Assembly (NCBI GenBank): GCA_039815145.1
Contig: JBCBZW010000054.1
Coordinates: 1 to 32,158 of the forward strand
Direction: 5' to 3'
Source: Pseudomonadota bacterium
Lineage (GTDB): Bacteria; Pseudomonadota; Gammaproteobacteria; Steroidobacterales; JBCBZW01
Length of the DNA stretch: 32,158 nucleotides
The translations under genes and the position numbers were made by a program. Of this stretch, positions 3,364-25,488 are shown piece by piece (within the stretch, counting starts at the first letter, position 1; each line of letters starts with the position of its first letter). The notes under the pieces are model-generated. The model was not told where the DNA came from and ran no database searches. It saw nothing but the letters and a program-made list of their open reading frames with translations.

Positions 3364-5838
3364 GTGAGCAGTGACGCCTCAGGGCGTACCCTTGCTGAGC
3401 TTTTCCCGTTCTGCCTCGAAGTGGACGACGCGCTTGTCGTGCGCGCTTGCGGCGCCTCGGCGCCGAAGCTGTTCGGGGAGTTACTCATCGGTCAGTCGCT
3501 GTGGGATCTGGTCGATCCGCCCGACGAAGGTGAGACCCTGAGCTTCGATGCGATCCGGGCCACGGCGGGCGAGCGCTTGGTGTTCCCGCTCAAAGCAGCC
3601 GCGGGGCGCCTGCGCGGGCAAGCGCACGCGATCATGCCCAGACGCCTAATGCTGCTGATCACTCCTTGGTTCGACGAGGTGAACGACCTCCTGGCGCTGG
3701 GTCTCACCGAATCGGACTTCGCTCCGCACGAAGCGTCCATCGATTTTCTCTTCATGAACCACGCGCGGTCGGTGCAGGCCCAGGAGCAGCTGGCGTTGAA
3801 CAAACGCTTGCAGAGCACCCTGGCCGAGACGCATCGCCTCGCGGGCCTGGAGCAAGAGCTGAACCGGGGGTTGGCGCTCGCCGCTGACCTGCGCATTCGC
3901 ATGGAAGGCGGGTGTATCGCTGATCTGGCGATCAACCATGAGAGCCTGACCCCGTTGGCGAGTGAAATCGCCATCGGCGCTTGCCTGTCCACGATGCCCG
4001 GTTGGCTGGCGCAGATGCTGTCCGCGAGTCAGCGTGCCCAGGAAGGTGAGGTCACGTCCGACGTACACGTGATCGAGCTCGACGGGGTGTCGCACACGCT
4101 GGACCTGCGCGTGTCGGGGGATCCGAACCGCAGCGCCATCATCGTCGGTCGGGATGTCACGGAGGAGCGCGCCGAGCAGGTGCTCCTGCTGCAAACCCTG
4201 GAGCATGCCCTGGAGGGGGTGCTGATGGCCGACCAGGACCATCGCATCGTGTTTGCGAACCGGGCGGCCGAGCGCATGTTCGCCTACCGGCGCGAGCAGC
4301 TCGTGGGCAAGCCCCTGGACTTCCTGTGCGCGGACGACTCCCTGAGCAAGCTGTCCACGGTGCTTAGCGGCGACATCGCCCTGCGCCGCCGTGACCGCGT
4401 GACCCTCACCTGTAACGTCTCGACCTCGCGAGTCCAGCACGGCGAGCGAGAGCTGGTCACCGCGTTCCTCGAGGACGTCACGGAGCGGCGAGCCGCGGAA
4501 TCGCGTATCGAGTACCAGGCCAGCCACGATCCCCTCACCGGCCTCGCCAACCGGGCTCAGTTCATGCGCAGCTTGGATCGCCTGCTCACCCACAGTCGCG
4601 AGCCCCTCGCCGTGGCGCTCATCGACATGGACGACTTCAAGGCCGTGAACGATCTGCACGGGCATGCCGCCGGCGATGAGTTCCTCTGCCGGATCGCCGA
4701 TCGTATCCAGCGCACGGTGCGGCCAGGGGACGTAGCCTGTCGCCTCGGCGGCGATGAGTTCGCGATCATCCTCGCCGAGGTGACCGGCGCCGAGGAGGCG
4801 GAGAAGGCCCTACAGCGCTTGCTAGGTGAACTGTGCGTGCACCTGGACATCGCCGGGGCGTCGTTCGTGCCCAGTGCGAGCGTTGGCGTGGTGGTGACCG
4901 CCCCCGGGAATGCGCCCTCCGATGTGTTGCGCCACGCGGACCTCGCCATGTACCAGGCGAAGGCGCGAGGCAAGAATCAAATCGCGCTGTTCACCGAATC
5001 GATGCAACGCGAGGTGATCCAGCGCATCGAGTTGCAGCGCAACCTGTCCCTCGCCATCGAACGCGATGAGATCAAGGCCTACTACCAACCCATCGTCGAT
5101 CTCGAGACCGGTGAGCCGGTAGCGCTCGAAGCCCTCGCCCGCTGGGAGACGGCCGAGGGCAAGGTGATCCCCCCGGGGCAGTTCATCGAGGTGGCGGAGC
5201 AGTCGGACCTCATCGTCAGGATCGGTGAGGCCGTGCTCGAGCAGGCGATCGATACGGTGCGCGTGGTGAGAGAGCAGTGGCCGCAGATGCGCGTGAGCGT
5301 GAACTTCTCCGCCCGGCACTTCCTCGAGGCCGGTCTCCTCGACTACCTCGATCGGGTGCTGCGTGAGGCTGGCCTGCCGGCATCCGCCCTCACCATGGAA
5401 CTCACCGAGAGCATGCTGCTGGCAGACCAGAGCGCCGTGCGTGAGCGCTTTGCGGCCCTGCGCGGGCTCGGCCTGCGGATCGCCCTGGACGACTTCGGCA
5501 CGGGCTACTCGTCCTTGTCCTACCTCGATCGCTTTCGCTTCGATCTGCTGAAGATCGACAAGAGCTTCGTGCGCGGGTTGGCCTCGCGCAGCGTGCGCAA
5601 GGAGCTCGCGCAGACCATCGTTGCCGTGGGCGGCATCATCGGCATCGACGTGGTGGCGGAGGGTATCGAAGAGGCCTCTGACGAGGCGATCCTGAAGGAG
5701 ATGCGCTGCCAGTACGGCCAGGGCTATTTCTACTCCAAGCCCATGCCGCGCGACGCCCTTTCCCTCTACCTCGGGGAGGAGCGCGCTCGCCTCGACGCGG
5801 CGACCGGGCGAGCCGAGATCAGGCTAATGAACTCGTAA
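3364..5838 (+). CDS. H-NOX-associated GGDEF-EAL c-di-GMP enzyme
   Basis: Bifunctional diguanylate cyclase/phosphodiesterase of 824 aa. Domains in order: H-NOX-associated (HNOBA) domain about 8-175 (FPF at the start, then the TPWFDEVNDLLALGLTESDF type motif); coiled linker; a further sensory region; PAS about 275-375; GGDEF with intact GGDEF at 462-466 and an RxxD inhibitory site at 453-456; EAL with EAL at 589-591, NFS, DDFGTGYSS, KIDKSF and AEGIE all present. Both activities should be possible, and H-NOX presumably sets the balance by NO, as shown for other H-NOX/c-di-GMP pairs. No transmembrane segment is seen, so it is cytosolic. The GTG start at 3364 lies 9 nt behind the H-NOX stop with a weak ribosome site, suggesting translational coupling. 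The 3' end overlaps the convergent receiver gene by 15 nt. Confidence 0.95.
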   Translation: MSSDASGRTLAELFPFCLEVDDALVVRACGASAPKLFGELLIGQSLWDLVDPPDEGETLSFDAIRATAGERLVFPLKAAAGRLRGQAHAIMPRRLMLLITPWFDEVNDLLALGLTESDFAPHEASIDFLFMNHARSVQAQEQLALNKRLQSTLAETHRLAGLEQELNRGLALAADLRIRMEGGCIADLAINHESLTPLASEIAIGACLSTMPGWLAQMLSASQRAQEGEVTSDVHVIELDGVSHTLDLRVSGDPNRSAIIVGRDVTEERAEQVLLLQTLEHALEGVLMADQDHRIVFANRAAERMFAYRREQLVGKPLDFLCADDSLSKLSTVLSGDIALRRRDRVTLTCNVSTSRVQHGERELVTAFLEDVTERRAAESRIEYQASHDPLTGLANRAQFMRSLDRLLTHSREPLAVALIDMDDFKAVNDLHGHAAGDEFLCRIADRIQRTVRPGDVACRLGGDEFAIILAEVTGAEEAEKALQRLLGELCVHLDIAGASFVPSASVGVVVTAPGNAPSDVLRHADLAMYQAKARGKNQIALFTESMQREVIQRIELQRNLSLAIERDEIKAYYQPIVDLETGEPVALEALARWETAEGKVIPPGQFIEVAEQSDLIVRIGEAVLEQAIDTVRVVREQWPQMRVSVNFSARHFLEAGLLDYLDRVLREAGLPASALTMELTESMLLADQSAVRERFAALRGLGLRIALDDFGTGYSSLSYLDRFRFDLLKIDKSFVRGLASRSVRKELAQTIVAVGGIIGIDVVAEGIEEASDEAILKEMRCQYGQGYFYSKPMPRDALSLYLGEERARLDAATGRAEIRLMNS

Positions 5839-6300
5839 ATCGGCGCGCGAGGACTCAGGCCGCATGTCATTCGGCAGGCGGAGCAGCGCGTGGGCGGGTG
5901 TCCAGCGGTCCGGTGCGCAGACCAGCAGTACATCATCGGCCTGCAGTGGCTTGGCGATCACGTGTTTCACCGCCGAGAAGCCGAAGGCGCGTGCCGTGTC
6001 TTCGGGGGTAGGAGAGGTCGCGAGGATGGCGACCGTGCCGAGGCACTCCTCCCCCAATTCCTGCGTCACGGTTTCGAGAAAATCGATGCCGTTCAGGCGC
6101 GGCATGTGCAGATCGAGGAGCACCACGTCGATCTCCGGTCGCTGCTTGCGTCGAAGAAAGTCCAAGGCCTCGTCGGGATAGAGAAAGCAGACCACCCGTT
6201 CGACCAGGCCCGACTTCTCCAGGGCCCGCTGCGCCAGTTTCTGATCGACCAGGCTGTCGTCAACGATCATCGCAGTGAGAGTTGGCGTGGCATGTGTCAT
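5824..6300 (-). CDS. Single-domain response regulator (CheY/Rcp1-like)
   Basis: Stand-alone receiver domain, 158 aa from the ATG at 6300. Phosphorylation residues are visible: acidic pair Asp14-Asp15 (IVDDS), phospho-acceptor Asp63 (LLDLHMPRLNG), Thr95/Ser96 (ILATS) and Lys117 (IAKP). The slightly long 60s loop and C-terminal tail resemble Rcp1-type receivers that work with phytochrome-like or hybrid kinases. There is no output domain, so it signals by protein contact. An upstream in-frame ATG would add 19 residues rich in Thr and Arg that do not look like a receiver; the shorter start has GAGGA about 11 nt upstream. No kinase gene is nearby. It converges on, and overlaps by 15 nt, the c-di-GMP enzyme gene, which it may serve. 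Confidence 0.9.
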   Translation of the reverse strand: MTHATPTLTAMIVDDSLVDQKLAQRALEKSGLVERVVCFLYPDEALDFLRRKQRPEIDVVLLDLHMPRLNGIDFLETVTQELGEECLGTVAILATSPTPEDTARAFGFSAVKHVIAKPLQADDVLLVCAPDRWTPAHALLRLPNDMRPESSRADLRVH

Positions 6301-6455
6301 CGGGCGGCGAGTCCTCGTCGTGAGGTGGGTGTGAGTGGTGATGCTAGGGCGCCTCACCCCGGCCTAGATGAGAACTGGTTCACAGGTTGCTCCGGCGTTT
6401 TGCCCTGATCTAAGGAGCACGACTCATAGGTCGCATCACTGCCGTTTCCGCTCTT

Positions 6456-7307
6456 TCAGGGCGCGAGCGTGATGATGTCGATTCGGTTGAGGGCAACGTA
6501 CGGCACTATCAACCGCTTACGCTTGGTATCTACACCAAGGTCGGCGGGTTTGCCGGCCAGAGCGATCGTCATCCGGTCGGCGCCGTTGGAAATGACGTGC
6601 AGGCTCTGATCCTGCTGGCTGGCCACGAAGAGCTTGCCGTCCACCAGCTCCAGGCCGTCGAAGTTGCCCCCGCCGTTCAGGGTGGCCACGGTGGAGAAGT
6701 CACCGGTGCCCGGTCGCCACGCAGCCACGTGGTCGGCGCCGCTCCAGGGCGCGAGGAGAAAGCCATCGCCGCGTGGCCCGCGGGTGATGCCGTTGGCGCG
6801 GAAGGGCGTCTTCGCCGCGATCGTGGCCTTGCCCTCGGCGATGCGGTAGAGCACGGACGTGCCCGTGTCCGTCACGTACAGGTGGCCCCCGTCGTCGGCG
6901 GCGATGTCGTTCGGAAAGCCTGGTTCGAAGGCGGCCAGGGAGACGAAGCTCAGGTGCTCGCCCGAGCGTCGATCGAACTCGTGCACGCCCTGTGCATCGG
7001 CCACCCACAAGCTAGCGCCTGCGATAAGCATGCCGCGACCGGCGTGGAAGGGGTGCTGCGCGGTGCCCGTCATGAACATGAGGTCGAGGATCTCACCCGA
7101 AGGGGAAACCTTGGAGACGAACCCGTTGCTGTCGCCATTGACCTCGCCGTTGAAGTTGGCCACGAAGTAGACGTCCTGCTCGGGGTCGTAGCGCACCGCC
7201 TCGGGGCCCTTGAAGCCCTCCACGGAGAGGACGAGTTCGCCGGCCGCGACAGCGGTGGCGGCGAGGGTGAGCAAGCTGGCGATGGCCAGGGCGGCGCGAT
7301 TGGGCAT
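6456..7307 (-). CDS. Secreted SMP-30/gluconolactonase-like beta-propeller
   Basis: 283 aa. An N-terminal signal peptide (hydrophobic AALAIASLLTLAATAVA, cleavage near AVA-AG) sends it to the periplasm. The rest is a six-bladed propeller of the SMP-30/NHL type with repeated units such as GPEAVRYD, LWVADAQGVHEFD, PNDIAADDGGHLYVTD, ANGITRGPRG and NFDGLELVDGKLFVAS. Asn and Asp at the ends of these loops match the metal-binding positions of SMP-30 lactonases. The substrate cannot be told; lactone hydrolysis or a pure sugar-binding role are both possible. The start is set at 7307 rather than the in-frame ATG at 7322 because a GAGGA lies 8 nt before 7307 and nothing lies before 7322. It is alone on this strand, divergent from the alpha/beta hydrolase. 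Confidence 0.85.
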   Translation of the reverse strand: MPNRAALAIASLLTLAATAVAAGELVLSVEGFKGPEAVRYDPEQDVYFVANFNGEVNGDSNGFVSKVSPSGEILDLMFMTGTAQHPFHAGRGMLIAGASLWVADAQGVHEFDRRSGEHLSFVSLAAFEPGFPNDIAADDGGHLYVTDTGTSVLYRIAEGKATIAAKTPFRANGITRGPRGDGFLLAPWSGADHVAAWRPGTGDFSTVATLNGGGNFDGLELVDGKLFVASQQDQSLHVISNGADRMTIALAGKPADLGVDTKRKRLIVPYVALNRIDIITLAP

Positions 7308-7315
7308 GGTGAGGG

Positions 7316-7320
7316 TCCTC
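7316..7320 (-). promoter_or_regulatory. Ribosome binding site deciding the propeller gene start
   Basis: GAGGA on the minus strand with an 8-nt spacer to the ATG at 7307. It overlaps the alternative upstream ATG (7322), which itself has no purine-rich site before it. Confidence 0.6.
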
Positions 7321-7640
7321 ATGATGGTGGCCCAGTGTAGGCTGCTGGCCGCGCCTTTCGAGCGGTTTTGCCTGCGGATGGCCGCTTGCCGCCGCAGGGC
7401 GCCGGCGGCGGAGACCGTTCGACGGGCCGGATCCCGAGAGCTCGTGCCGAGTCGTGCCGCGGCGTGCTCAACGCGCTACCCCGAGACCTTCGTGTTGCCC
7501 CTCTCGCGCGCATGCGTTCGGCGGTCGTGCCGTTCCTTCACGATCAGGTCGCTTCCCAAAGCCACGCGGCCGTTCTCAAAGGGCGGCGGCGCCATTCGGG
7601 TGTGCCCTCGTCATCCTCCAGGCGTGCACGTACGCGAACG

Positions 7641-7648
7641 AAGGAGGT
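7641..7648 (+). promoter_or_regulatory. Strong ribosome binding site of the hydrolase gene
   Basis: AAGGAGGT, a near-perfect anti-16S match, 5 nt before the ATG at 7654. It fixes the start although the frame is open for a further 444 nt upstream. Confidence 0.85.
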
Positions 7649-7653
7649 ACGCG

Positions 7654-8748
7654 ATGATGAACGCACGACGAAGCCAGCGCCCGTGGGCGGGGCTCACCCT
7701 GGCGCTGACATCCCTGCTGGTCGCCCTCGCCGTGGCCCCCGCGGCGGCCGCGGATGGGCTCCTGAACCCACCGTTCTTCCCCGCGGTGAACAGTGAGACC
7801 ATCGACGGTCGAACGCTCGTCTGGAGCGAGCTGGGCGCCGCCGACGGATTTCCCCTCTTCTTCGCCGTCGGCTTCCCCCACGCCGCCTCGACGGGCGCCG
7901 GCGCCCTCTCGCCCCTGGACGAATTCCTGCGCCGAGAGAACGTGCGTCTCATCGCGTTCGAACGCACGGGCGCGACCAACCGGTCTACCTTCGATGTGGA
8001 CGACACGCTCGACGATTACGTGGCCGACGTCGAGCGCATAACCGCACTGCTAGGTGTGGAGCGCTTCTCCGTGCTGGCGTTCTCGGCCGGTGGGCCAGGG
8101 GCCCTCGCTGTTGCCGCCACCTTCCCCGAGCGAGTGCGCAGCGTGCACCTCATGGCCGCGCGGGGCCGCTACGAGGACGCCCTGGCCGAGCGCACCGGAG
8201 AGCAAGCGGACTTCGAGGCGCTGATTGACGACCCCCTGGCCTACGCGCCGTTCTACGAGTTCTTTCCGCCGCCGCGCGTGTTTCTGGACCCGAACGACGT
8301 GGCGTTTCTCGATGCGAACTTCGGCACCGAATTCGTCGACTTCTACTTCGCGACGGCGATCGAGGAACTCGACCAGAACCCGGAGGGACTCAGTGCGAGT
8401 CGGGCCATCGGCTACCAGCCTTGGTCCTTCGCCCTGGGCGACGTGGTAGCGCCCGTGTTCGTCTACCAAGGCTGGGATGACACCTCGATCAAGGCCGAGG
8501 GGTATGCGCAGGACACGGCCGCCCGCGTTGGCGGCGCGTCCAGCGTGCGCTTCTACCCTGGGGAGAGTCACTTCGAGGCACACCTCAAGCACGTCGATCA
8601 GGTGGTGTTGGATCTGCAGACCTTCGGCCGGCGCCTGATCCTGTGCGTTGCCGACGGCGAAGGGAGGCGCACCGAGCAGGTGCCGGTGCCGCGGGTGGCC
8701 AGGCGGCTGCAGGAGGGCGCGACGATCGGCGACTGCGTTTGGCAGTAG
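7654..8748 (+). CDS. Secreted alpha/beta hydrolase
   Basis: 364 aa. Signal peptide about 1-34 (long hydrophobic TLALTSLLVALAVAPAAAA), so periplasmic or secreted. The mature part is an alpha/beta-hydrolase fold: oxyanion region AVGFPHAAS after beta-3, nucleophile elbow with Ser144 in LAFSAGGPGA, acid Asp275 or Asp276 (YQGWDDTS) and His306 (PGESHFEAH). The elbow reads A-x-S-x-G, not the usual G-x-S-x-G. A lid-like insertion rich in Phe and Pro (about 185-250) sits between strands 6 and 7. A C-terminal tail with Cys331 and Cys361 could form a disulfide. Substrate unknown; esterase or peptidase are equally possible. It is a single gene closed by a strong convergent terminator. Confidence 0.88.
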   Translation: MMNARRSQRPWAGLTLALTSLLVALAVAPAAAADGLLNPPFFPAVNSETIDGRTLVWSELGAADGFPLFFAVGFPHAASTGAGALSPLDEFLRRENVRLIAFERTGATNRSTFDVDDTLDDYVADVERITALLGVERFSVLAFSAGGPGALAVAATFPERVRSVHLMAARGRYEDALAERTGEQADFEALIDDPLAYAPFYEFFPPPRVFLDPNDVAFLDANFGTEFVDFYFATAIEELDQNPEGLSASRAIGYQPWSFALGDVVAPVFVYQGWDDTSIKAEGYAQDTAARVGGASSVRFYPGESHFEAHLKHVDQVVLDLQTFGRRLILCVADGEGRRTEQVPVPRVARRLQEGATIGDCVWQ

Positions 8749-8759
8749 CGCCGGTGATG

Positions 8760-8794
8760 GCCGGACGCTGCCGTGCGGATCGGAAGCGTCCGGC
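8760..8794. terminator. Bidirectional terminator hairpin between convergent genes
   Basis: Perfect 10-bp inverted repeat (GCCGGACGCT at 8760-8769, AGCGTCCGGC at 8785-8794) with a 15-nt loop. It sits in the 52 nt between the hydrolase stop and the protease stop. No long T run follows on either strand, so it may rely on Rho or act as an mRNA end stabiliser. Confidence 0.6.
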
Positions 8795-8800
8795 TAGAGG

Positions 8801-10093
8801 CTACTGCAATCCGTAGTACTGCAGTCCTGCGTCGGTCACCGTTACTGCCTGGACGGCAGCGAAGTCGGCGTTGCTGTTGCTCAGCCAGGTTTCCGTCAGG
8901 CAGGCGAAGCCACCGCGGCCCCAGCCCTCACCCCAGCTGTTGGCGGTGATCACGCAGAAGCGCCCCTCGCGCGCCATCGAGTCGGGCAGGCGGATGTACC
9001 CGACGAGCAGATTCGCGTGCCCCGACGCGTGCGGCCCCTTGGCCGCGACGTTGTTGCTCGGATCGTGGTATCTCACCAGGCCCTTGTTTCTGCCGTAGGT
9101 GGGCGTCAGGCGAAAGCCTGCGACCACGGGCTGGTTGTTGCGCAGCGCGTTCAGCAGTGCCGGTAGGCTGCGCACGGCTTGCAGGGCGCTCGGCTTGGCA
9201 AAGCCGTCGCGCGGGCAGTTCTCGAGGGGAGCGTTGGTGATGTTGCGCTCGTCCCTGCGCGGCGAGTACGGGCAGAAGGCCTCTCCCGGGATCGCGCCGA
9301 AGCGCTGATTCGCAGATTGCAGCAACCCGCCGACCAGGGTCGAACCGCCGTTGTCGGCGCCGCAGAAAGGGGCGCGTTGGCACGAGGGTTTGGAGATGAA
9401 GTAGAAATACTCCTCCGACAGGTCCAACTCCACGCCTTGCTGAATCACGATCGCCTCGAGGGAGCGAACGCCGCTGAAGGCGGCGCAGGTGCCGCGCTGG
9501 GCCTGGTCTTTCACGGCATGGTTGAGCGCGTTGGGCAGCACGTGGAACTCGCCCGGGCGCATCGCGTCGAGGTCGACGCGAAAGCTCGCGTAGGTGGCCG
9601 CCTGCAGCGACGGATCGGCCCCTTCCAGGGGGATCGCCGCCGCTTCGTAGGCGGCTTGCTTGGGCAGGTATTCGGCGCGCGCCTTGTCCCAGCGCGCCAC
9701 GGTGCGCTCGTACTCCTCGTCCCACGCCTTCACCGTGTCTTCGAACTCCGCGTCCATCTCGGCCACCATGTCGTCGAAGCTGGCGTCGTCGTCGAAGAAG
9801 TCGTCGTCGAAGAAATCATCCTCCCCATCGCTCGGTTTGGGTGCCGGCTGCGGACCCGGCGCCGGGCCAGGTCCAGGGCGAGGCTCAGGGGACGGTGGAT
9901 CGACCTTGTCCTGGTCCGGGAAGTCGAGGCCCATCTGCTCCAGCATCGCTTGCACGATCATTTGCGACGGCTGGGATAAGGGATACTCTTGCCCCGGGGG
10001 TGCGGGGCGGAATTCGCGCGCTGCGTGCGATAATTCCCACGGCAATGCACAACATACAAGACCGCTCACCAGGTAAATCAACAGACGGTGCAA
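8801..10093 (-). CDS. Secreted papain-like (C1 family) cysteine protease
   Basis: 430 aa. Signal peptide 1-24 (LLIYLVSGLVCCALPW, cleavage near SHA-AR). Residues 66-87 are a Pro/Gly-rich linker, then a very acidic stretch (about 89-120, with DDFFDDD-type repeats), then a helical segment rich in Trp, Glu and Lys (about 120-155) that could be a propeptide. The protease domain starts near 170: oxyanion Gln197, nucleophile Cys203 (QRGTCAAFS), His359 (SGHANLLVGY) and Asn385 (TANSWGEGWGRGGF) give a complete papain triad. Additional cysteines (238, 244, 274, 293, 380) suggest disulfides in an oxidising compartment. The TTG start at 10093 is chosen because GAGGA lies 8 nt upstream. That start overlaps the start of the divergent gene. 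A joint role with the three secreted proteins of that operon is inferred. Confidence 0.88.
   Translation of the reverse strand: MHRLLIYLVSGLVCCALPWELSHAAREFRPAPPGQEYPLSQPSQMIVQAMLEQMGLDFPDQDKVDPPSPEPRPGPGPAPGPQPAPKPSDGEDDFFDDDFFDDDASFDDMVAEMDAEFEDTVKAWDEEYERTVARWDKARAEYLPKQAAYEAAAIPLEGADPSLQAATYASFRVDLDAMRPGEFHVLPNALNHAVKDQAQRGTCAAFSGVRSLEAIVIQQGVELDLSEEYFYFISKPSCQRAPFCGADNGGSTLVGGLLQSANQRFGAIPGEAFCPYSPRRDERNITNAPLENCPRDGFAKPSALQAVRSLPALLNALRNNQPVVAGFRLTPTYGRNKGLVRYHDPSNNVAAKGPHASGHANLLVGYIRLPDSMAREGRFCVITANSWGEGWGRGGFACLTETWLSNSNADFAAVQAVTVTDAGLQYYGLQ
10026..10034 (+). promoter_or_regulatory. Possible extended -10 promoter of the three-gene operon
   Basis: TGCGATAAT fits a TGn plus -10 hexamer. 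It lies 53 nt before the GTG at 10088, inside the N-terminal codons of the divergent protease gene. No good -35 is seen at the right distance. Read from sequence only. Confidence 0.3.
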
Positions 10094-11281
10094 CAGCTTA
10101 TTCCTCGCATAGGTAGCGCTAAGAGCACGTTCCGTGCCTGGGTGCAGTCTACTTTAGCCGCCAGTGGTGCTCTACTCGCCCTGGCGCTGGGATCCGTCGC
10201 CGCGTTGGCGGCCCCCCAACCCGTGTACGTGGCGGGCCTTGCGTATCTGGGGGACTACCAGTACGCGGACAGCAACTACGCGCTCGCGCGAGGATTGAAT
10301 GCCGAGGATCAGGCCCTGGACCGGCACGTTCGAGCAGCGCTGGAGGCGCTTCGACCGACCCACCTGGAGCTGCGCTTCGAGCTGGGGGATCTGGATCGCA
10401 CGGACACGATCGTCATGGCCATCGCCCTCGATCGCGAACGCGTGAGCCGCGAGCGCTTCGCGTTTCGCCAGGGCTTTCGCACCAAGGTGATCGTGGAGGC
10501 ATCGCTTCAGATCCTGTTCTACGACCTCGCCACCGGCGCCCTGGTGGACAACGTGCCGGTGAGCGCAGCGATCAATCACGTGTTGCGCGATGAGGATGCG
10601 ATCGACGCCGAAACGAAGCGCCTCGCTGAGATGCTCTACCTCGGCGACGGTGAGGATCAGGGGCTTCTGGTGCAGGCGACGGCGAAGCTCGCTGCCTTTT
10701 CGCCACGGGTGGCGGACGGACTTCGCTACCAACTCGCAAGCTTCACCCTCCACGAGCGTACGCTAGGTGTCTTACCCTCGGGTCAAAGCGCGGATCAGGT
10801 GCTGCAGAGTTTCGGCCAGTCCTTCAGCGCTCGCCTCGCCGAGCAGACGCCCGTGAGCGTGATTCCCTTCGCCCGCGGCTACGCGTTCGGCAATCAATTG
10901 CCCGGTCGCTTCTCCAACGGGGAGGTGTTCAACCTGCAGCTGCCCGAGCCGGACTACGCCTTTCACGTCGAGCTCAAACGCTTGTCCAAGCACGAGCAGG
11001 ACGATCAGCTGATCTTCCTGACCCAAGCGTTTCTACGCTTCGTCGAGCCGGTGACGGGACGCGCTCTCGTCGCGGGCGATTACCGCACCCAGGTGCCCAA
11101 GCTCGCGAGTGCGGCCAGGATTGAATCTGATGACTGGAGCGCGTATCAAGATGCCGTAGAGGCGCTGTTCGATAGCTGGATCGAACAGCTCAAGGAACCG
11201 ACTCGCCGCTGGCACACCCAGCACGCGCGAGAGAAAGAGAGTTTCAGTCAATTCCGCAAAGCTGGGGAGCTGTTTCAATGA
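10088..11281 (+). CDS. Exported protein of unknown function, first of three
   Basis: 397 aa from the GTG at 10088. A 22-residue polar, basic N-tail precedes a clear hydrophobic signal (ASGALLALALGSVAALA, cleavage near ALA-AP). The mature protein has two alpha/beta-looking halves. The first (about 45-190) contains GLAYLGDYQYAD and a run of alternating strand residues. The second (about 245-380) contains QSFSARLAEQTPVSVIPFARGY and PEPDYAFHVELKRL, reminiscent of the nucleotide-like fold of CsgG/TolB-N/FlgT-type envelope proteins, but I cannot assign a family. No lipobox. The start is uncertain: the ribosome site is weak (AGGT about 13 nt upstream) and GTG at 10142 is an alternative. The last codons overlap the next gene (ATGA), so the genes are translationally coupled. 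Confidence 0.75.
   Translation: MQQLIPRIGSAKSTFRAWVQSTLAASGALLALALGSVAALAAPQPVYVAGLAYLGDYQYADSNYALARGLNAEDQALDRHVRAALEALRPTHLELRFELGDLDRTDTIVMAIALDRERVSRERFAFRQGFRTKVIVEASLQILFYDLATGALVDNVPVSAAINHVLRDEDAIDAETKRLAEMLYLGDGEDQGLLVQATAKLAAFSPRVADGLRYQLASFTLHERTLGVLPSGQSADQVLQSFGQSFSARLAEQTPVSVIPFARGYAFGNQLPGRFSNGEVFNLQLPEPDYAFHVELKRLSKHEQDDQLIFLTQAFLRFVEPVTGRALVAGDYRTQVPKLASAARIESDDWSAYQDAVEALFDSWIEQLKEPTRRWHTQHAREKESFSQFRKAGELFQ
10102..10106 (-). promoter_or_regulatory. Ribosome binding site for the protease TTG start
   Basis: GAGGA on the minus strand, 8 nt before the TTG at 10093. It lies inside the first codons of the plus-strand gene and supports a real start overlap between the two divergent genes. 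Confidence 0.55.
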
Positions 11282-12360
11282 CCTCGAGTGTCGGTGCACC
11301 GCGCTACGCCCTCCTTTTCCTGTTGCTCGCCAGCCTGTTGGCGAGCGCGGCCTTCGCGCTCGAGCAAAAGGGGGTGGCCGACCTCGAGGTGGGGCGCAAG
11401 CTCGACCGGGAGGAGCGCGCGCAGTTGATCGATGCAGCGCTGCGCAACGCTATCGAGACCTGGGTGGCGGAGAAGCAACCCAGCCAATACGATAACTATA
11501 AGCGCGTGAAGGATAGTATCGACGCCGACATCGGCGGTTACGTCCTCTCGCACACGGTCATCAGCGAGGAGTTCGAAAAGCAGCAGCGCACCGCCAAGAT
11601 GGTGCTACGGGCGAACCTCAACGAGCCGAAGCTCCTCGACACCCTGCTCAGCGCGTCCTCCTTCGTGCGTGAGAGCGCCTACCTCACGTTCGTCTTCGTG
11701 GCGCGTGAGCAGGTGGGCACGGTCAACGAATCACGCAAGACTGCCACGCAAGAGAAGTCGCAGACCCAGGGCATCGGCCGCGAGCGCAGCGAGAACGAGG
11801 CGTCGCAGACCAAGCGCCAATCGAAGACCACCGGCGTGACCAAGCGCGAGGAGGTGATCGAGGGGCGAGCGCTCTGGGATGTCTCCACCTCCAACGAGGT
11901 GGACGCGGCGATGGGCGATATCTTCACCGACGCGCGCTACCTGGTGATTCCAGCCAGCATGGTGGGCGCCGACACGGGTAACACCCTGAACGTGGAGGCC
12001 TTCATCGCCGACTACGCCACGGGCCGCGACGTCTCCCCTGCCACCCGTCGCGAAGCCTATCGACGCCTGGCCGGTCTGAAGGGCACGGACGAGGAGATCC
12101 AATACCTCGCGATGGGCACCCTCGATGTGGAGTCGAGCAGCATCGACAAGGCCACCGGTAACTACCGGGTGGCCGTGGCCGTGACGGGCGAAGTGCTGTC
12201 GATCCTCCAGCGCGGCGCGGCCGTGGCCAAGGTCGGCCCGGACACGAAGATCGGTGAGGGGCCTTCCGAACTGGTGGCCCGCAACAATGCCCTGAAGCTT
12301 GCGGCGGAGAGCGTCGCCAGCGACCTGGTGGCCAAGCTCAGTGGCCGCAACATCCGCTGA
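11278..12360 (+). CDS. Exported LPP20/FlgT-N-like protein, second of three
   Basis: 360 aa with a signal peptide (YALLFLLLASLLASAAFA, cleavage before LEQKG). After it comes a helix with the pattern EERAQLIDAALRNAIETWV, then a strand-rich stretch ending in AKMVLRANLN. This resembles the N-terminal domain of FlgT and LPP20-type lipoproteins, whose typical core is 'A..Ai..Al..Av'. The centre (about 145-190) is a hydrophilic linker rich in Thr, Ser, Gln, Lys and Glu. The C-terminus (SELVARNNALKLAAESVASDLVAKL) again looks like an LPP20-type helix. No lipid-anchor cysteine. The family assignment is a weak resemblance only. The start codon overlaps the stop of the preceding gene by 4 nt; the third gene follows 19 nt later. 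Confidence 0.78.
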   Translation: MTSSVGAPRYALLFLLLASLLASAAFALEQKGVADLEVGRKLDREERAQLIDAALRNAIETWVAEKQPSQYDNYKRVKDSIDADIGGYVLSHTVISEEFEKQQRTAKMVLRANLNEPKLLDTLLSASSFVRESAYLTFVFVAREQVGTVNESRKTATQEKSQTQGIGRERSENEASQTKRQSKTTGVTKREEVIEGRALWDVSTSNEVDAAMGDIFTDARYLVIPASMVGADTGNTLNVEAFIADYATGRDVSPATRREAYRRLAGLKGTDEEIQYLAMGTLDVESSSIDKATGNYRVAVAVTGEVLSILQRGAAVAKVGPDTKIGEGPSELVARNNALKLAAESVASDLVAKLSGRNIR

Positions 12361-20183: not shown

Positions 20184-20927
20184 TCAGCCCAGCGTGTGGA
20201 CCGGCGAAGTGCCGAGCGGACCGCGGGGGATCACCAGGTACACCGTCTCGCCGTCGCGCAGCAATTGCACGTGGACGTACTCTCCGCGCTCGCCCTGCAC
20301 GCTCAGGGCGTGCAGCTCGTGGAGGTGGAACACCCGTTGGCCATCGTAGTGGGTCAGCTGATCGCCGCCTCGCAGGCCCGCCGCCGCGACCTCACTGCCC
20401 TCGGGTAGGGCGCCTACGGCCACGGCCGTGCTGCGCCCGAGGGTGCTCAGGTAGCGGGCGTAGGTGTCGTCCCCGAGCTCGGCGCGCAGGGGGTTGAGGA
20501 CGTCAAGGCGGAATCCCTCGGGCGAGGCGAGGAAGGCGTCGCGGCGCCGCTGCCAGGTCTGCAGATCGCGATCGGCCGCGATGCGCGTCAGCGACTGGCG
20601 GACGTGGGCTGCTTCGTCGCGGGCGAGGGCAGCGTTACCAGGGCTGGACGCCGTCTCGTAGGCGGCCGGGTTGGCGAGCTTCGCCGGGGTTGGAGAAGGT
20701 GGCCGCTCGCGCAAGGTCGCCAGCGTGGCTGCCAGCTGCCGCCTCGCCTCGACCTCGCGCGCCAGTGCCTGCTCGACCCTGCGCAGGGCGTCGCTCTGGG
20801 CCCCCAGGGCGCTTGTGAGTGCCGCCACACGATCGTTGGCGTGGGCGGTCTCGCCCCGAACGAAGGCGACGCCACCCCCGCTGATCGCAAAGGCTATCGC
20901 CAGCGTTAGTAGACGGGTTCGTAGCAT
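20184..20927 (-). CDS. Membrane-anchored or exported PDZ-domain protein
   Basis: 247 aa from the ATG at 20927. The N-terminal hydrophobic segment (LLTLAIAFAISGGGVAFV) is a signal peptide or single anchor. A coiled coil follows (about 28-65, VAALTSALGAQSDALRRVEQALAREVEARRQL spread over heptads), then a Pro/Ala linker, a helical region (about 100-165) and a C-terminal PDZ-like domain (about 170-240) with GSEVAAAGLRGGDQLTHYDGQRV. There is no protease domain, so it would be an adaptor that binds unfolded or C-terminal peptides. The gene follows the lipoprotein gene by 11 nt, and both lie downstream of the CHAT gene on the same strand, so a role in the same envelope system is inferred. The ribosome site is weak. 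Confidence 0.8.
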   Translation of the reverse strand: MLRTRLLTLAIAFAISGGGVAFVRGETAHANDRVAALTSALGAQSDALRRVEQALAREVEARRQLAATLATLRERPPSPTPAKLANPAAYETASSPGNAALARDEAAHVRQSLTRIAADRDLQTWQRRRDAFLASPEGFRLDVLNPLRAELGDDTYARYLSTLGRSTAVAVGALPEGSEVAAAGLRGGDQLTHYDGQRVFHLHELHALSVQGERGEYVHVQLLRDGETVYLVIPRGPLGTSPVHTLG

Positions 20928-20938
20928 GACGGTCGCTG

Positions 20939-21484
20939 TCAGAGGAAGCTGCTGCCGGTGAGCAGGCAGTCCTGGCGCGTGGTGCCCGGACCGAAGGGGT
21001 TGATGACCAGCGTGAGCCCGTCCGGTTGCTCCACCCACTCGACCAGGAAGCGCTCGATGGTGCCCGTGACCTTGGTGAAGTCGGCGAACTGGTTCTCCCC
21101 GGTGAAGATGTAGGAGGCGGTCGACGAAACCAGTTCGCCGGAGGTGAAGATGGTCACGTTGCCCGTGCCGATCACCGCCGTGATGTCGGGGTTGGGGCCC
21201 GACCCGAAGACCACGCCGGCGCTGTTGATCACCTCGACGTCCAACGTCAGCACACCGACGATGCCTTGAAGGTCGCAATCGAAGGTGAAGCGCGCCTTGT
21301 TGGACGGCGCCGGACCGCCCCCACCGCCGCCAGCGTTGCCTTGTTGATTGTTGGCGACGTTGGCGTTGGCCGGGTTGGCGCCGCCCCCACTGTCCTCGCC
21401 GCCGCCGCAGGCGCTCAGCACGGCGCTTGCCATCAGGAGCAGCGCGAGACGCGTCCAGCGTCCCGTCGTGTTTCGCATCGTCAT
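20939..21484 (-). CDS. Small lipoprotein of unknown function
   Basis: 181 aa from the ATG at 21484; the ATG at 21478 is equally possible and a further one at 21511 is less likely. Signal peptide with lipobox VLSAC, so the chain is lipidated on Cys and likely outer-membrane bound. The linker after Cys is Gly/Asn/Ala-rich (GGGEDSGGG, GNAGGGGGG). The globular part (about 65-181) is beta-rich with two cysteines (FDCDLQG, RQDCLLTG) that may form a disulfide. I do not recognise the family. GAGGGAAGAG precedes the start. The gene is separated from the upstream CHAT gene by the 163-bp palindrome and is followed 11 nt later by the PDZ gene. Confidence 0.78.
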   Translation of the reverse strand: MTMRNTTGRWTRLALLLMASAVLSACGGGEDSGGGANPANANVANNQQGNAGGGGGGPAPSNKARFTFDCDLQGIVGVLTLDVEVINSAGVVFGSGPNPDITAVIGTGNVTIFTSGELVSSTASYIFTGENQFADFTKVTGTIERFLVEWVEQPDGLTLVINPFGPGTTRQDCLLTGSSFL

Positions 21485-21572
21485 GATCGTCTCTTCCCTC
21501 AGCTCTTCCATGGCGCAGCGGTCGGCGCCGTTGCGCTTCAGGAGTGATACGGGAGTCGGGACGAAAGTGATC

Positions 21573-21735
21573 TAGTGTCCTGTCCCGTAAGTTCGTTGAA
21601 GAAGTCGCACGGGGCTTTTTGCTCCTAGGCGCGGCGCGAGGACGAGCGTGGCAGGCCCCACGGGAGGAGGAGCAACGTGCCTAGGGGCAAAAAGTACCCG
21701 CGAATTCTTCTACGAACTTGCGGGACAGGGCACTA
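21573..21735. mobile_element. 163-bp long palindromic element (MITE-like)
   Basis: Almost the whole element is an imperfect hairpin. The left arm 21573-21630 (starts TAGTGTCCTGTCCCG) pairs with the right arm 21679-21735 (ends CGGGACAGGGCACTA) over about 58 positions, with roughly eight mismatches and one indel, and a 48-nt loop. Compensating differences suggest old divergence. No ORF. TA at both ends fits a TA-target element. It sits 19 nt after the CHAT stop and about 90 nt before the lipoprotein start, so it will form a large RNA hairpin in any read-through transcript. Confidence 0.75.
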
Positions 21736-21754
21736 CTACGCGCCGTGCGCCTCG

Positions 21755-24391
21755 TCAGTCGGTCATGACCACGAAGGCGGCCCAGAAGTAGGGGTGGGCG
21801 TAGGGGGCGCGCGGATCGTCGAAGTGCACCGTGGGCGCGCCGGACGCGCGATCGCCGTAGATCGCATCGAGCTGGGCCGTACGCAGGGCGGCGGCACCGC
21901 TCTCGCCCGCGGCGCGCTCGCGGTAGAGCCGACGCATGAAGGTGGAGGTGGCTCGGTCGGAAACGCGCCACAGGGAGGCCAACACCGCGTTGGCGCCGCG
22001 GGCGCGGGCCAGGGCGCCGAGGCTGGCGATCTCGAGGCCGCGACCCTGGGCGGCATCGCCGAGGGCGGTCTCGCAGGCGGAAAGCGCCAGCCACCCGACC
22101 CCCGTGAAATCGAGTTCCGCGAACTCCGGCAGGGTGATGCGCTCGCCGTTGCCGACCAGCAGGTAGGAGTCGCTCACCCGCCCGGGGCTGAAGACGAAGT
22201 GGCTGGCGATGTGCAGGTTGGGCACATGCTCATCGGTGACGCGGGTGAGCGCCGCGAGGGAGAAGCGCTCGTCCAGGTAGATCTCTCCGGGCATGGTGCC
22301 GTCCGGGTCCGTCGCGTCACGCCGCACGATCTTCTCCAGTTCCTCTTCCACGTAGGGCAGGGGCGGCAGGGCCAGGGCTTCGTCCACCTCGGTGATACCG
22401 AAGGCGACGGCCCGCGGTGCCGGCGTCGTCGGGACGGTATCGCTCCCCTCGCCGTGGGAGGTGCGGGTGATCGTGTAGCGCTCGATGAGGAACCGCTCGC
22501 CATCGTGCAGGGCGGTGAAGGGCACGTAGCGCAGGGCGCCATCGAGGGTCAGCTGCAGGTGAGTGATGCGCTGGGTATCCAGCTCACCTAGCACAGGCGC
22601 TAGGAGGAGATCGTAGAGCGCCTGGCCAGCGGCGCGCGGGTCCTGCTGGGGATCGCGGACTTGGCGCCGGAACTCGAACACGCGCTGATTGAGCTCGCGA
22701 GCCGATAGGGGGATTTGGCGCTGAAAGGCTCGGTCTGACAGGGTGGCGACGATGCGCAGGGCCCTGGCGTCGAGCACGTAGGTGAGTTTGACGCTGGTCG
22801 CGTCGAGCCGTGCGCCAGGGGGTAGGGTCGCGGGCGCTGCCTCTGCCGGGGGATCGCCAGCGGGCTCGCGCGTGAGGCGCTCCACGAGCTTGCTGAGGGC
22901 CTCCGCGTAAGCCTGCTGGAGGCGTTCGCTGTCCCACTCATCGTGCGCTGCGCGAAGGGCTCGGCGGGCATCGAGGAAGGGCTCGGCCAGGGCGTTTTCC
23001 GCCTCGGAGAGGGGGATGCGGGCGTTGGTGATGCGCTCGATCCAGCCGCCGCGCGTGAACTGGTACAGCTCTTCGTTGCGCACCAGATCGAGCACGGCCG
23101 AGGCCTCAGGCAGGCGACCGAGATCGATCAGCAGCGTGCTCAGGGAGCGGTAGATGGGTTCGCGCCGGGAGGTGTAGCCCTGCTCGAGATCCTCGGGCAG
23201 GGGATAGAGCTTGTCCCGCACCTCCTGCACCTCCGTCACTGCCAACTTGCCGAGCACCACGGCAGCTTGGCCAAGCCCCTGGCGGGCGAGGGCGCGGGTG
23301 AGGCCGTCGTAGGCGTCGATGATGAGGGGCGGTTCGTTGGCCCGTTCACTGATCAGCAGCGACTCGACCCACTGCTGGCGGGCGAGTTCGGGCAGGTCGA
23401 GATCGAGTTGGGCCTCGGCGATGTTGTTGAGGGACTCGGCGACGTAGGGGTCGTTGCGGTCCAGGCGCTGGCGGCGCAGGGCGAGGGCCTGCTCGTGCAG
23501 GTCCAGGGCGAGGGCACTGCGACCCTGCATGCGTCGCGCGCGGCCGAGCGCGTCGAGGGCGATCGGCTCCACGGGCCCGCCCGCCGCGATCTCGATCGCC
23601 GCCTCGTAGCGTTCTGCCGCGCCGGCGGCATCGCCCTGGGCCTCGAATACGGAGCCGAGGTTGACCAGGGCGGAGAGCAGCATCGGATGCTTCGGCGGCA
23701 GCACTTTGCGGCGGATGGCGAGGGCTTCGCCGTAGAGCATCTCGGCGCGGGCCAGGTCGCCGAGCTCGTAGTAGACGCCGGCGAGGTTGTTGAGGGCGAT
23801 GGAGATATCGCGCGGCGGCGCTTCGCTGTCGCGCATCCGGCGCAGCGCCTGCTCGTAGAGATCGGCGGCGACGGCGAAGTCCGCCTGGAAGTAGGCGATG
23901 CCGGCGAGGCCGTCGAGGGCCGTGGTCTCGCCGCGCATATCGCCGTTGCCGCGGTACAGGGCTAAGGCATTCTCTAGCTCGTTTTCGGCCTGGTCGTACG
24001 CGCCGAGGTCGCGATGGCTCAAGCCCACGCGGTAGGCGAGCAGGGCCGCGCGCTGCGTGTCGTCGGCGGGCAGCAGCTGGCGCGCTTGCGCGTAGAGCGC
24101 CAAGGCTTCCTTGCTGGCGCCGAGCAGGCCGTTGGCCCAGGCCAGGCGGTTCAGGAGGTCGCCGCGCAGGGTGGGGTCCTGCACGTCGCTGAGAGCCGCC
24201 GAGAGCACCTCGATGGCGTCGCTGTACTCGCCGAGGTCGATCAAGCTGATGCCCTGGGCGAGGGCCTCGGCCGCGGCTTGGTCCGAGGGCGTCGCCGCGT
24301 TCGGTTGCCCGTGCGCGGCGACGAAGGCCAGGCACCCAAGGGCGCAGAGGATCCAGGCGGGTGGGCGCGAAGTGCGATTCGGACGGGTCAC
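21755..24391 (-). CDS. Exported TPR-CHAT caspase-like protein
   Basis: 878 aa from the GTG at 24391. Signal peptide about 8-30 (WILCALGCLAFVAAHGQ), so it is exported. About 40-480 holds tandem tetratricopeptide-like repeats with the typical G-x-Y/L...A...Y..AL pattern (for example LGEYSDAIEVLSAAL, LGDLARAEMLYGEAL, QGDAAGAAERYEAAI). The C-terminus (about 590-878) is a CHAT domain of the caspase/separase fold, with catalytic His731 (LHIASHF) and Cys773 (LALSACETALG) and the final PYFWAAFVV strand. A peptidase cutting one partner, recognised through the TPRs, is expected by family. The start is fixed by GAGGGA 7 nt upstream. Stop of the anti-sigma-like gene and this start are 11 nt apart, so the two are one operon with the sigma factor gene. 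Confidence 0.9.
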   Translation of the reverse strand: MTRPNRTSRPPAWILCALGCLAFVAAHGQPNAATPSDQAAAEALAQGISLIDLGEYSDAIEVLSAALSDVQDPTLRGDLLNRLAWANGLLGASKEALALYAQARQLLPADDTQRAALLAYRVGLSHRDLGAYDQAENELENALALYRGNGDMRGETTALDGLAGIAYFQADFAVAADLYEQALRRMRDSEAPPRDISIALNNLAGVYYELGDLARAEMLYGEALAIRRKVLPPKHPMLLSALVNLGSVFEAQGDAAGAAERYEAAIEIAAGGPVEPIALDALGRARRMQGRSALALDLHEQALALRRQRLDRNDPYVAESLNNIAEAQLDLDLPELARQQWVESLLISERANEPPLIIDAYDGLTRALARQGLGQAAVVLGKLAVTEVQEVRDKLYPLPEDLEQGYTSRREPIYRSLSTLLIDLGRLPEASAVLDLVRNEELYQFTRGGWIERITNARIPLSEAENALAEPFLDARRALRAAHDEWDSERLQQAYAEALSKLVERLTREPAGDPPAEAAPATLPPGARLDATSVKLTYVLDARALRIVATLSDRAFQRQIPLSARELNQRVFEFRRQVRDPQQDPRAAGQALYDLLLAPVLGELDTQRITHLQLTLDGALRYVPFTALHDGERFLIERYTITRTSHGEGSDTVPTTPAPRAVAFGITEVDEALALPPLPYVEEELEKIVRRDATDPDGTMPGEIYLDERFSLAALTRVTDEHVPNLHIASHFVFSPGRVSDSYLLVGNGERITLPEFAELDFTGVGWLALSACETALGDAAQGRGLEIASLGALARARGANAVLASLWRVSDRATSTFMRRLYRERAAGESGAAALRTAQLDAIYGDRASGAPTVHFDDPRAPYAHPYFWAAFVVMTD

Positions 24392-24398
24392 CGGGGCG

Positions 24399-24404
24399 TC
24401 CCTC
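24399..24404 (-). promoter_or_regulatory. Ribosome binding site for the CHAT GTG start
   Basis: GAGGGA on the minus strand, overlapping the TGA stop of the anti-sigma-like gene, with 7 nt to the GTG at 24391. It argues against the longer in-frame start at 24511, which would lie inside the upstream gene. Confidence 0.65.
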
Positions 24405-24864
24405 AGCGGTCGGAGCGGTAGTCCGGGTGAAGTTGATTGAAGGCGTGCAGGTGGGCTTCCGCCAGGGCGAAGTCGCCGCGGTAGATCAGCTCCTGGATGT
24501 AGCGGTACCACACGGCGGGATCGGCTTCGGCGACGGCCACCTCGACGCCGCCGCTCGCCGAACGGGTGGCATCGGCGGGGAGCATGAGGCCAGCGTCCGG
24601 GATCGCGTCGCTCGGGCCTAAAGACGGCGTTGAGAGCGGCGATAGCACGGCGCCCACCACCAGGCCTGCGGCGAGGGCGATGGGCCAGCTCGCCAGGGAG
24701 CGGCGGGGCGCCGGGCGCAGGCGTGCGGCGGCGGCATCGGCGGCGCTCGCGACGACGGTGTCTTGGGCCTTCAGGCGCGAGGGATCCGCGGCCGACTGGA
24801 GCAGGCCGGCGAATGCCTCGCCGTCGTCCCAGTCGTCCAACTCATCATCGTGCTGTTCAGCCAT
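24403..24864 (-). CDS. Anti-sigma-like single-pass membrane protein
   Basis: 153 aa. Cytosolic acidic N-terminus (about 1-55: EQHDDELDDWDDGEAFAGLLQ then Ala-rich), one transmembrane helix about 58-77 (ASWPIALAAGLVVGAVLSPL) and an external tail of about 75 residues. The tail ends in WYRYIQELIYRGDFALAEAHL followed by FNQLHP, a half-TPR-like helix pair that I recall from other proteins encoded after ECF sigma genes. There is no zinc-finger HxxxCxxC motif. Role inferred: holds the sigma factor at the membrane and is regulated from outside. Its ATG lies inside the 3' end of the sigma gene (8-nt overlap), and its stop is 11 nt before the CHAT start, the position expected of an anti-sigma factor. 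Confidence 0.75.
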   Translation of the reverse strand: MAEQHDDELDDWDDGEAFAGLLQSAADPSRLKAQDTVVASAADAAAARLRPAPRRSLASWPIALAAGLVVGAVLSPLSTPSLGPSDAIPDAGLMLPADATRSASGGVEVAVAEADPAVWYRYIQELIYRGDFALAEAHLHAFNQLHPDYRSDR

Positions 24865-25450
24865 CGAGTAGTGACCTCGCTGTGGTCCCCAGGGACTCTT
24901 TCAGTTTCTTCAGGGCGTAGCGCTTGCGGCTCAGCACTGTGTTCCGCGGTGCGCCCGTCGCCCTCGCCACCTCTTCCGCCGACATGCCCGCCGACCACAT
25001 GGCGATGACCTCGCGCTGCTCCAGCGGCAGTTCCGCCAGCGCCGCCAACAGGCGCAGGCGACCCTGCTCTGCGGCCGCACCACCAAAGGCGCCGTCCTCG
25101 CTGGCGAGCGTGTCCTCGAGTGCTTGCCCCCCGGCGAGCGACTCGCTGCGCACCGGCTGCGGTCGGCGGCAGTAGTCATCGATGTAGCGGTTGCGCGCCA
25201 TCGTGTAGAGATAGGCGCGAAAGCTGGACCCCGCGCCCGGCGTGAAGGTGCCCCGTTCGGTCGCCTCGAGCAGCTGCAGCCAGGCTTGCTGGGACACCTC
25301 CTCGGCCACGGCCTGGTTACCCGACAGGCCAACCGTGAAGCTCAGCAAGGGCTTGCGATAACGCTCGTAGACGATGTCGAACGCGCGGCGATCCCCGTGC
25401 CGTTGAAAGCGGAGCAGCAGCGCTTCGTCGGTGTCGTTACTGGAAGCTAT
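24857..25450 (-). CDS. ECF sigma-70 family factor, start codon unusual
   Basis: RNA polymerase sigma factor of the extracytoplasmic-function group. Region 2 includes AEEVSQQAWLQL and FRAYLYTMARNRYIDDY. Region 4 includes LPLEQREVIAMWSAGMSAEEVARATGAPRNTVLSRKRYALKKL, a helix-turn-helix. A TTG at 25348 would give 163 aa but cuts off the beginning of region 2. Homology-like codons (T-D-E-A-L-L-L-R-F) extend upstream to about 25438. No ATG, GTG or TTG exists in frame between there and the previous gene. The best site is an ATA at 25448-25450 with AGGGA 9 nt before it, giving 197 aa, the usual ECF length. The exact start is therefore unsettled. The 3' end overlaps the anti-sigma-like gene by 8 nt. 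Confidence 0.85.
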   Translation of the reverse strand: MASSNDTDEALLLRFQRHGDRRAFDIVYERYRKPLLSFTVGLSGNQAVAEEVSQQAWLQLLEATERGTFTPGAGSSFRAYLYTMARNRYIDDYCRRPQPVRSESLAGGQALEDTLASEDGAFGGAAAEQGRLRLLAALAELPLEQREVIAMWSAGMSAEEVARATGAPRNTVLSRKRYALKKLKESLGTTARSLLDG

Positions 25451-25457
25451 ACGGGTG

Positions 25458-25488
25458 ATTCCCTGGAAATGATCTACGCCCAGGGAAT
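25458..25488 (-). promoter_or_regulatory. Perfect hairpin over the sigma-gene ribosome site
   Basis: ATTCCCTGG (25458-25466) and CCAGGGAAT (25480-25488) form a perfect 9-bp inverted repeat with a 13-nt spacer. On the minus-strand RNA the second arm contains the AGGGA (25460-25464) that would serve the ATA start at 25450, so folding would hide it. Alternatively it is a protein operator in the leader. Confidence 0.5.

Follow-up and report, generated by a model that had tools for sequence, protein, structure and literature searches.

Recurrent linkage of ECF sigma factor, single-pass membrane protein and TPR-CHAT genes in Steroidobacterales, and its possible bearing on anti-sigma control

A 32,158-nucleotide stretch of DNA from a bacterium of the order Steroidobacterales (contig JBCBZW010000054.1 of assembly GCA_039815145.1; hereafter the window, meaning this whole stretch) carries five genes on its minus strand, running from 25450 to 20184, that encode in order an extracytoplasmic function (ECF) sigma factor, a protein with one predicted transmembrane (TM) segment, a predicted exported TPR-CHAT protein, a putative lipoprotein, and a PDZ-domain protein. 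The grouping of the CHAT and sigma genes is not incidental, and represents a recurrent module. We propose, with about an even chance of being right, that this module is an envelope signaling unit in which the ECF sigma factor is sequestered by an anti-sigma factor that crosses the membrane once and is itself under the control of the exported TPR-CHAT protein on the periplasmic side. The sequence basis of this proposal covers gene order, recurrence, the relation of the one-TM protein to a family of sigma partners, the catalytic residues, a common promoter-like motif, and the precedent of DdvA, in which an anti-sigma factor and a CHAT domain are fused; the further points, namely binding of sigma, location in the periplasm, cleavage, a signal, and the reading of the motif by the sigma factor, are inferred.

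The linkage was assessed in a census of 246 genomes of the order, in which the CHAT family PF12770 was matched at an E-value of 1e-20 or better at 92 places in 57 genomes. A CHAT gene was called in 84 of the 87 loci examined (none in L245, L255, or L266), for a total of 85 CHAT genes. The gene caller, the hydropathy-based TM prediction, and the sigma and CHAT profiles were home-made, the census leaves out G004:C260:32752, G001:C9, and G019:C123, and the window was counted apart. An ECF sigma gene was located no more than four genes from CHAT in 33/84 loci. Counted per gene, ECF sigma factors accounted for 33/543 genes within four genes of CHAT compared to 0/256 farther out (p 2e-6), with a peak at the position two genes upstream of CHAT (13/69 compared to 0/249, p 9e-10), although these p values serve only as guides, since loci that share a genus or genome lack independence; for instance, the two species in the genus of the window contribute two orthologous pairs to the census.

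The preliminary description of this DNA had proposed searching genomes for the gene order ECF sigma factor, one-TM protein, CHAT, while allowing that the CHAT gene might stand beside the sigma gene only by accident. The counts above speak against accident, and the order itself was found contiguous and on a single strand at 12 census loci, in addition to the window, with exactly one TM segment predicted for the product of the middle gene in 12/12. More broadly, in 29 of the 33 linked loci the gene immediately after sigma encoded a one-TM protein distinct from CHAT, the exceptions being L194 (a kinase with one TM segment), L206 (no gene called after sigma), L262 (the next gene lies on the opposite strand), and L269 (sigma, then CHAT, then a one-TM gene). 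Other linked loci were divergent, convergent, or had the sigma pair downstream of CHAT. The gene that follows sigma in L194 (8857-10461) encodes a membrane Ser/Thr-kinase-like protein.

A search of the class matched 11/274 genomes, and sigma was present in one of ten CHAT neighborhoods beyond that of the window (L084, in the set L084-L093). A scan of named genomes gave 13 loci, ten of which were checked for sigma; it was present in L062, where the arrangement is divergent, and in L063, which lies outside the order and has sigma, one-TM protein, and CHAT genes in that same order. The L063 record carries the label of a Bordetella parapertussis metagenome bin, possibly in error. The L084 locus (5773-11353, genome G280), likewise from outside the order, comprises sigma, a one-TM protein, a C14 caspase, and a convergent TPR-CHAT gene, so that a single sigma locus has two caspase-like proteins. 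A candidate sigma gene in L066 (7727-8290) was rejected, being supported neither by Pfam nor by the sigma profile. The window's own genome harbors a second ECF sigma gene with a zinc-finger-like one-TM protein (L035 257-5121, G000:C75), accompanied by an exported-looking protein of 326 aa and by a convergent TPR-CHAT protein that ends in a TM segment followed by RRRR, like a sorting signal.

The CHAT protein of the window is matched by the Pfam families CHAT (4.4e-58) and TPR_12 (8.8e-34). Of the features claimed for it in the preliminary description, the presence of His731 and Cys773 was borne out, and the N-terminus, VTRPNRTSRPPAWILCALGCLAFVAAHG, resembles a Sec signal peptide by inspection only. 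The catalytic His and Cys are kept in 85/85 CHAT genes of the census. An AlphaFold2 model built from seven sequences (mean pLDDT 80) predicted a TPR solenoid followed by the CHAT domain. When this model was compared to the PDB with Foldseek, the first matches were 8rw5 and 8rot, both DdvA (E 1.3e-12), at a TM-score of 0.26, indicating that the match is partial and probably driven by the repeats; separase and Csx29 came later, among TPR proteins. A profile restricted to the CHAT domain likewise ranked 8rot_B first (7.8e-9), ahead of Csx29 (6.5e-5) and separase (0.003), and in the alignment to this profile DdvA keeps both the catalytic His and Cys. The 20 CHAT proteins of set A5 were picked by hand. 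With VIA-align, the CHAT protein aligned to Csx29 (7y9x) over 560 residues (Z 24.7, root-mean-square deviation 6.9); DdvA was not among the best 50 matches listed, and the ranking was led by other TPR proteins. Since the first structural match of the CHAT protein is DdvA, an anti-sigma factor with a CHAT domain of its own, the most fitting view of the window is as a relative of DdvA that has been split.

The one-TM protein, whose gene lies directly 3' of the sigma gene, has a short N-terminus, one TM segment beginning at residue 56 according to a simple hydropathy script, and a TPR-like hairpin at the end of its tail. Pfam detected this half-TPR weakly (TPR_14, E 0.017, below cut-off), and in a poor single-sequence AlphaFold2 model (mean pLDDT 56) the hairpin was the only part predicted with fair confidence (pLDDT 72-92 in the blocks that cover it). 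The C-terminal hairpin matched the partner family of the window's own sigma lineage by hhalign (96.6%, 5.9e-10) and by hmmsearch (5.4e-8, with 0.067 the best of 2000 shuffles), while the partners in G496, a genome of another family, matched the N-terminus of the same family (92.5%, 4.9e-7). The N-terminus of the window protein did not match that wider family significantly, and it looks as if the window and G496 proteins keep different ends of one family. Ten members of the wider family were scanned with Pfam, with nothing beyond weak TPR-like matches. Direct homology of the window protein with the L209, L221, L223, and L063 partners is not claimed (hhalign 0.5%).

For the partners at other loci, there is fair support from sequence profiles for a function as anti-sigma factors. 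A profile of 16 partners, picked for their alike N-termini, had as its first PDB match 3hug_B (E 6.7e-5), which we take to be the anti-sigma factor RslA and whose entry is titled a probable conserved membrane protein; the DdvA chain 8rlz was found at E 0.2. Single partners matched zf-HC2 (2.8e-4; L201, L216), an NCBIfam antisigma model (5.9e-6; L216), and RsrA (0.0032; L201), all below curated cut-offs, and there was no Pfam match for the L195 and L209 partners. Six partners contain H-x3-C-x2-C (L196, L201, L216, L226, L232, L035). The partner tails vary, from the TPR hairpin of the window to an immunoglobulin-like tail in L151 (PF25788 at E 3.2e-4, below cut-off, and no match to a hairpin of the window type) and other sequence elsewhere. 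The tail of the L152 partner resembles that of L151 by eye, with no Pfam match. The preliminary description had considered the window one-TM protein to be anti-sigma-like, and it probably is an anti-sigma factor, given its C-terminal family match and the anti-sigma profile of partners elsewhere; no recognizable domain of that kind was found in it.

The sigma protein itself is matched by Sigma70_r2 (E 2.2e-12) and Sigma70_r4 (1.9e-7) in Pfam, and scores 143 bits against the PRK12513 model, under the cut-off of 206. No ATG, GTG, or TTG codon is present at a sensible position for its N-terminus, and a TTG start listed at 25348 was rejected because it would remove part of sigma region 2. The start is likely a rare ATA codon at 25450-25448, within the block GATCATTTCCAGGG(A/G)ATCA(C/T)CCGTATA, which is kept between the window and its sister species at the 5' end of the gene. 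Homologs were sought in 369 genomes of the class and 246 of the order, with some genomes in both sets. The two closest outside the genus are both in G496 (E 4.9e-39 and 2.1e-34), and each is followed by a one-TM protein gene and then by a gene for an exported-looking TPR-CHAT protein, with neighbors overlapping or abutting. In a tree of 72 sigma sequences, the window sigma, that of G001 (the other genome of the genus), and the two from G496 formed one clade (100/99), all CHAT-linked, nested in a set of 40 sigmas of which 36 are not CHAT-linked. The CHAT-linkage label changes six times on this tree, at least two of these changes being forced by well-supported branches; some branches are long, the bootstrap is not fully settled, and the CHAT-linked and other rows come from different searches. 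CHAT linkage is thus present in separate sigma lineages. The frequent recurrence of the gene set among related bacteria suggests that caspase-like proteins have been drawn into envelope stress signaling more than once.

The motif TAGATCAYTTYC-N10-CCGTAT stands with equal spacing 5' of both the sigma operon and the lipoprotein gene, and is kept in G001. Searching both genomes with no more than two mismatches gave four and five places, compared to one and none for the reversed pattern; the window count is not independent, since it was the two sites in the window that defined the motif, while the G001 copies and the exporter pair described next are more nearly so. A third orthologous place is 5' of an exporter operon (two mismatches in each genome, the limit of the search), in which an exporter gene, RND-type by eye, is followed by one for a possible outer-membrane protein. 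The motif is therefore found in two species at three orthologous places: the sigma, lipoprotein-PDZ, and exporter operons. The window sigma may be what reads it. The places not common to both species are G000:C31 (one mismatch, 5' of an exported protein) and G001:C19 and G001:C31 (two mismatches, within called genes). The motif was not found in L151, and in L152 occurred only with three mismatches, a level that 13/200 shuffles also matched. As the presumed -10 part of the motif overlaps the presumed sigma start, one may speculate that sigma-driven transcripts yield the anti-sigma and CHAT proteins and little sigma.

DdvA and Craspase already provide examples of a caspase-like protein coupled to an anti-sigma factor, so that this coupling by itself is not novel. 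DdvS and DdvA of Myxococcus xanthus are described as an ECF sigma factor and its anti-sigma factor, the signal for inactivation of DdvA being reported there as unknown (PMC4374960), and DdvS is reported to control an antiphage island (PMC12288465). The identity of DdvA as a transmembrane anti-sigma factor in 8rot, 8rw5, and 8rlz was taken from the PDB titles. Common to the window and DdvA are the pairing of an anti-sigma factor, a probable one in the window, with a CHAT domain, and an adjacent ECF sigma gene; the window's TPR-CHAT protein is related to DdvA by both the profile and Foldseek comparisons. The window differs in that DdvA is a natural fusion, one polypeptide of 991 aa comprising an anti-sigma domain, a TM segment, TPR, and CHAT, whereas the window has the anti-sigma-like and TPR-CHAT proteins as separate genes, and in that the motif precedes envelope genes. 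In Craspase (Csx29/Csx30/CASP-sigma, type III-E CRISPR), a TPR-CHAT protein also accompanies an ECF-like sigma factor and its inhibitor: according to the portion of the report available, Csx29 cuts Csx30, the inhibitor of CASP-sigma, and this cleavage is proposed to relieve sigma (PMC10028731). Unlike Csx29, the window CHAT protein has a signal-peptide-like N-terminus and scores 14.5 bits against a cut-off of 300 for the Csx29 model, and no CRISPR-like array was found in the window (direct repeats of at least 22 bases, seed 16, within 100 bases).

The RseA/DegS/RseP system, in which RpoE is regulated by proteolysis of an anti-sigma factor that spans the membrane once and extends a tail into the periplasm, provides a third comparison. 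The window protein is likewise single-pass with a predicted periplasmic tail, and RseP is encoded in the genome (338 bits against a cut-off of 147.55). In contrast with DegS, a PDZ trypsin-like protease, the candidate first-cut enzyme here is a caspase-like CHAT protein, and a PDZ protein is encoded separately nearby. DegS/DegP-like proteins are also encoded, the best one scoring under the DegS cut-off, so that replacement of DegS by CHAT does not follow. Genes for CHAT proteins, subtilases, and carboxypeptidases are reported near those of ECF54 sigmas, which are said to have no anti-sigma factor and for which proteolytic control is proposed (PMC8999054). A CHAT gene is thus conserved near an ECF sigma gene there as well, but the window sigma has an anti-sigma-like gene, as do the linked loci in which a one-TM gene follows sigma. 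ECF sigma genes beside caspase systems are also noted in an excerpt of a further report (PMC8195603). The earlier view that a caspase-like periplasmic first-cut protease would be new was accordingly too strong, being preceded by the DdvA structures, Craspase, and the ECF54-CHAT observation; in the open-access literature searched, we found no description of an anti-sigma factor being the target of an exported CHAT protease.

In the proposed signaling unit, a periplasmic signal would be sensed by the TPR part of the CHAT protein, perhaps with help from the lipoprotein and the PDZ protein that are regulated together with it, and would activate the His/Cys site. The activated CHAT protein would then, as its most likely and a plausible step, make the first cut in the anti-sigma tail. 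RseP-type intramembrane proteolysis would make the second cut and free sigma, and the freed sigma would read three operons: that of sigma itself, that of the lipoprotein and PDZ protein, and that of the exporter. If CHAT does start anti-sigma proteolysis, then a caspase-like enzyme would be the counterpart of DegS in bacteria, and the gating of sigma factors by TPR-CHAT proteases would appear to be an older scheme, with Craspase as one of its branches. In its broadest form, exported TPR-CHAT proteins would be widespread and repeatedly recruited caspase-like site-1 proteases of the periplasm that start ECF anti-sigma proteolysis in Gram-negative bacteria, with DdvA and Craspase as special cases, a generalization that we hold tentatively and rate somewhat short of an even chance. 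The loci are compact and free of CRISPR, and are suited to testing the role of the CHAT domain of DdvA.

Several observations weigh against this proposal. No ECF sigma gene was found within four genes of CHAT in 51/84 loci, although many loci stop at contig ends and a missing sigma is no proof of absence, and in L194 sigma is followed by a protein kinase rather than an anti-sigma-like protein. The convergent or divergent position of CHAT at several loci suits co-regulation as well as proteolysis. No CHAT gene was present at the 38 fetched loci of the nearest other sigma relatives, some of them cut by contig ends, which implies that this sigma family mostly works without CHAT. The catalytic residues are kept in sigma-linked (33/33) and unlinked (52/52) CHAT genes alike, which argues for catalysis generally and not for this role. 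In addition, the window one-TM protein matched no known anti-sigma domain in Pfam and model scans and was only distantly comparable to the G496 partners (hhalign 21.5%, E 1e-3), so its link to anti-sigma factors rests on the C-terminal hairpin, its position, and the sigma phylogeny.

Other explanations have to be weighed. The TPR-CHAT protein could serve a split anti-sigma complex as an ectodomain that senses without proteolysis, docking on the tail and altering sigma binding conformationally. DdvA, in which one chain holds both the CHAT domain and the anti-sigma factor, can be read likewise, and the tail of the window protein does end in a TPR-like hairpin, but the retention of His and Cys throughout the census suggests catalysis, and the L151 partner has its immunoglobulin-like tail in place of such a hairpin; we regard this explanation as unlikely, if deserving of serious attention. 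We consider it rather improbable that CHAT belongs among the products that sigma controls, acting as an envelope protease or a suicide effector and simply being transcribed along with the other genes. That would account for its place in the operon of the sigma factor, for the convergent and divergent arrangements, which fit co-regulated targets, and for the motif before other envelope genes, whereas the fused DdvA and the Craspase precedent put TPR-CHAT at the anti-sigma step and a one-TM gene separates sigma from CHAT in all contiguous loci. Finally, the one-TM protein might not be an anti-sigma factor and the cluster might be a chance neighborhood. The N-terminus of the protein, which matches no family, would be in keeping with this, but recurrence and enrichment, the partner-family relation, and the anti-sigma profile at other loci make it very improbable.

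The features of the locus are listed in Table 1. All five genes are in the same order in G001, the CHAT proteins of the two genomes being 83% identical. The spacing given in the preliminary description was confirmed, with the sigma gene (end 24857) overlapping the one-TM gene (start 24864) by 8 nt and a gap of 11 nt between the end of the latter (24403) and the GTG start of CHAT (24391), and the lipoprotein and PDZ genes said to follow are indeed there. The lipoprotein had no Pfam match up to E 1, while the G001 ortholog of the PDZ protein matched PDZ_2 at 3.6e-8. No matches were obtained in an Rfam scan of the window and none in a sigma-70 promoter scan, and PADLOC gave generic TPR matches for the CHAT protein, two weak ones for sigma, and nothing further.

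Table 1. Positions of the genes and motifs discussed; coordinates are those of the window except for the exporter operons, which are given by locus
Feature	Position	Strand	Basis or remark
ECF sigma factor	24857..25450	minus	Sigma70_r2/r4; probable ATA start 25450-25448 (inferred)
One-TM anti-sigma-like protein, 153 aa	24403..24864	minus	Translation, hydropathy, C-terminal family match
TPR-CHAT protein, predicted exported, 878 aa	21755..24391	minus	CHAT 4.4e-58, AlphaFold2 model, DdvA/Csx29 matches, dyad
Putative lipoprotein	20939..21484	minus	LSAC lipobox; conserved in G001
PDZ-domain protein, predicted signal-anchored or exported, start codon not fixed	20184..20921	minus	PDZ_2 2.9e-6
Promoter-like motif TAGATCAYTTYC-N10-CCGTAT	25449..25476	minus	Overlaps presumed sigma start; conserved in G001
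Second motif copy	21547..21574	minus	5' of lipoprotein-PDZ genes; G001 copy with 1 mismatch
RND-type exporter operons, motif copy 5' of each	L284 5518-10122; L285 5345-10037		One per species

A PDZ domain fused to CHAT, which would tie the window PDZ gene to the CHAT proteins, was considered and is not claimed. In Pfam searches up to E 0.5, no PDZ domain was found in the CHAT proteins of L151 (25 of 26 families listed) or L152, and hhalign of a CHAT N-terminal stretch against the window PDZ domain gave a probability of 2.1% (E 0.023). The CHAT genes whose N-termini are PDZ-like by eye are those of L151 (8301-11723), L152 (8807-11992), and L194 (5064-8834); the N-termini of the other linked CHAT proteins differ.

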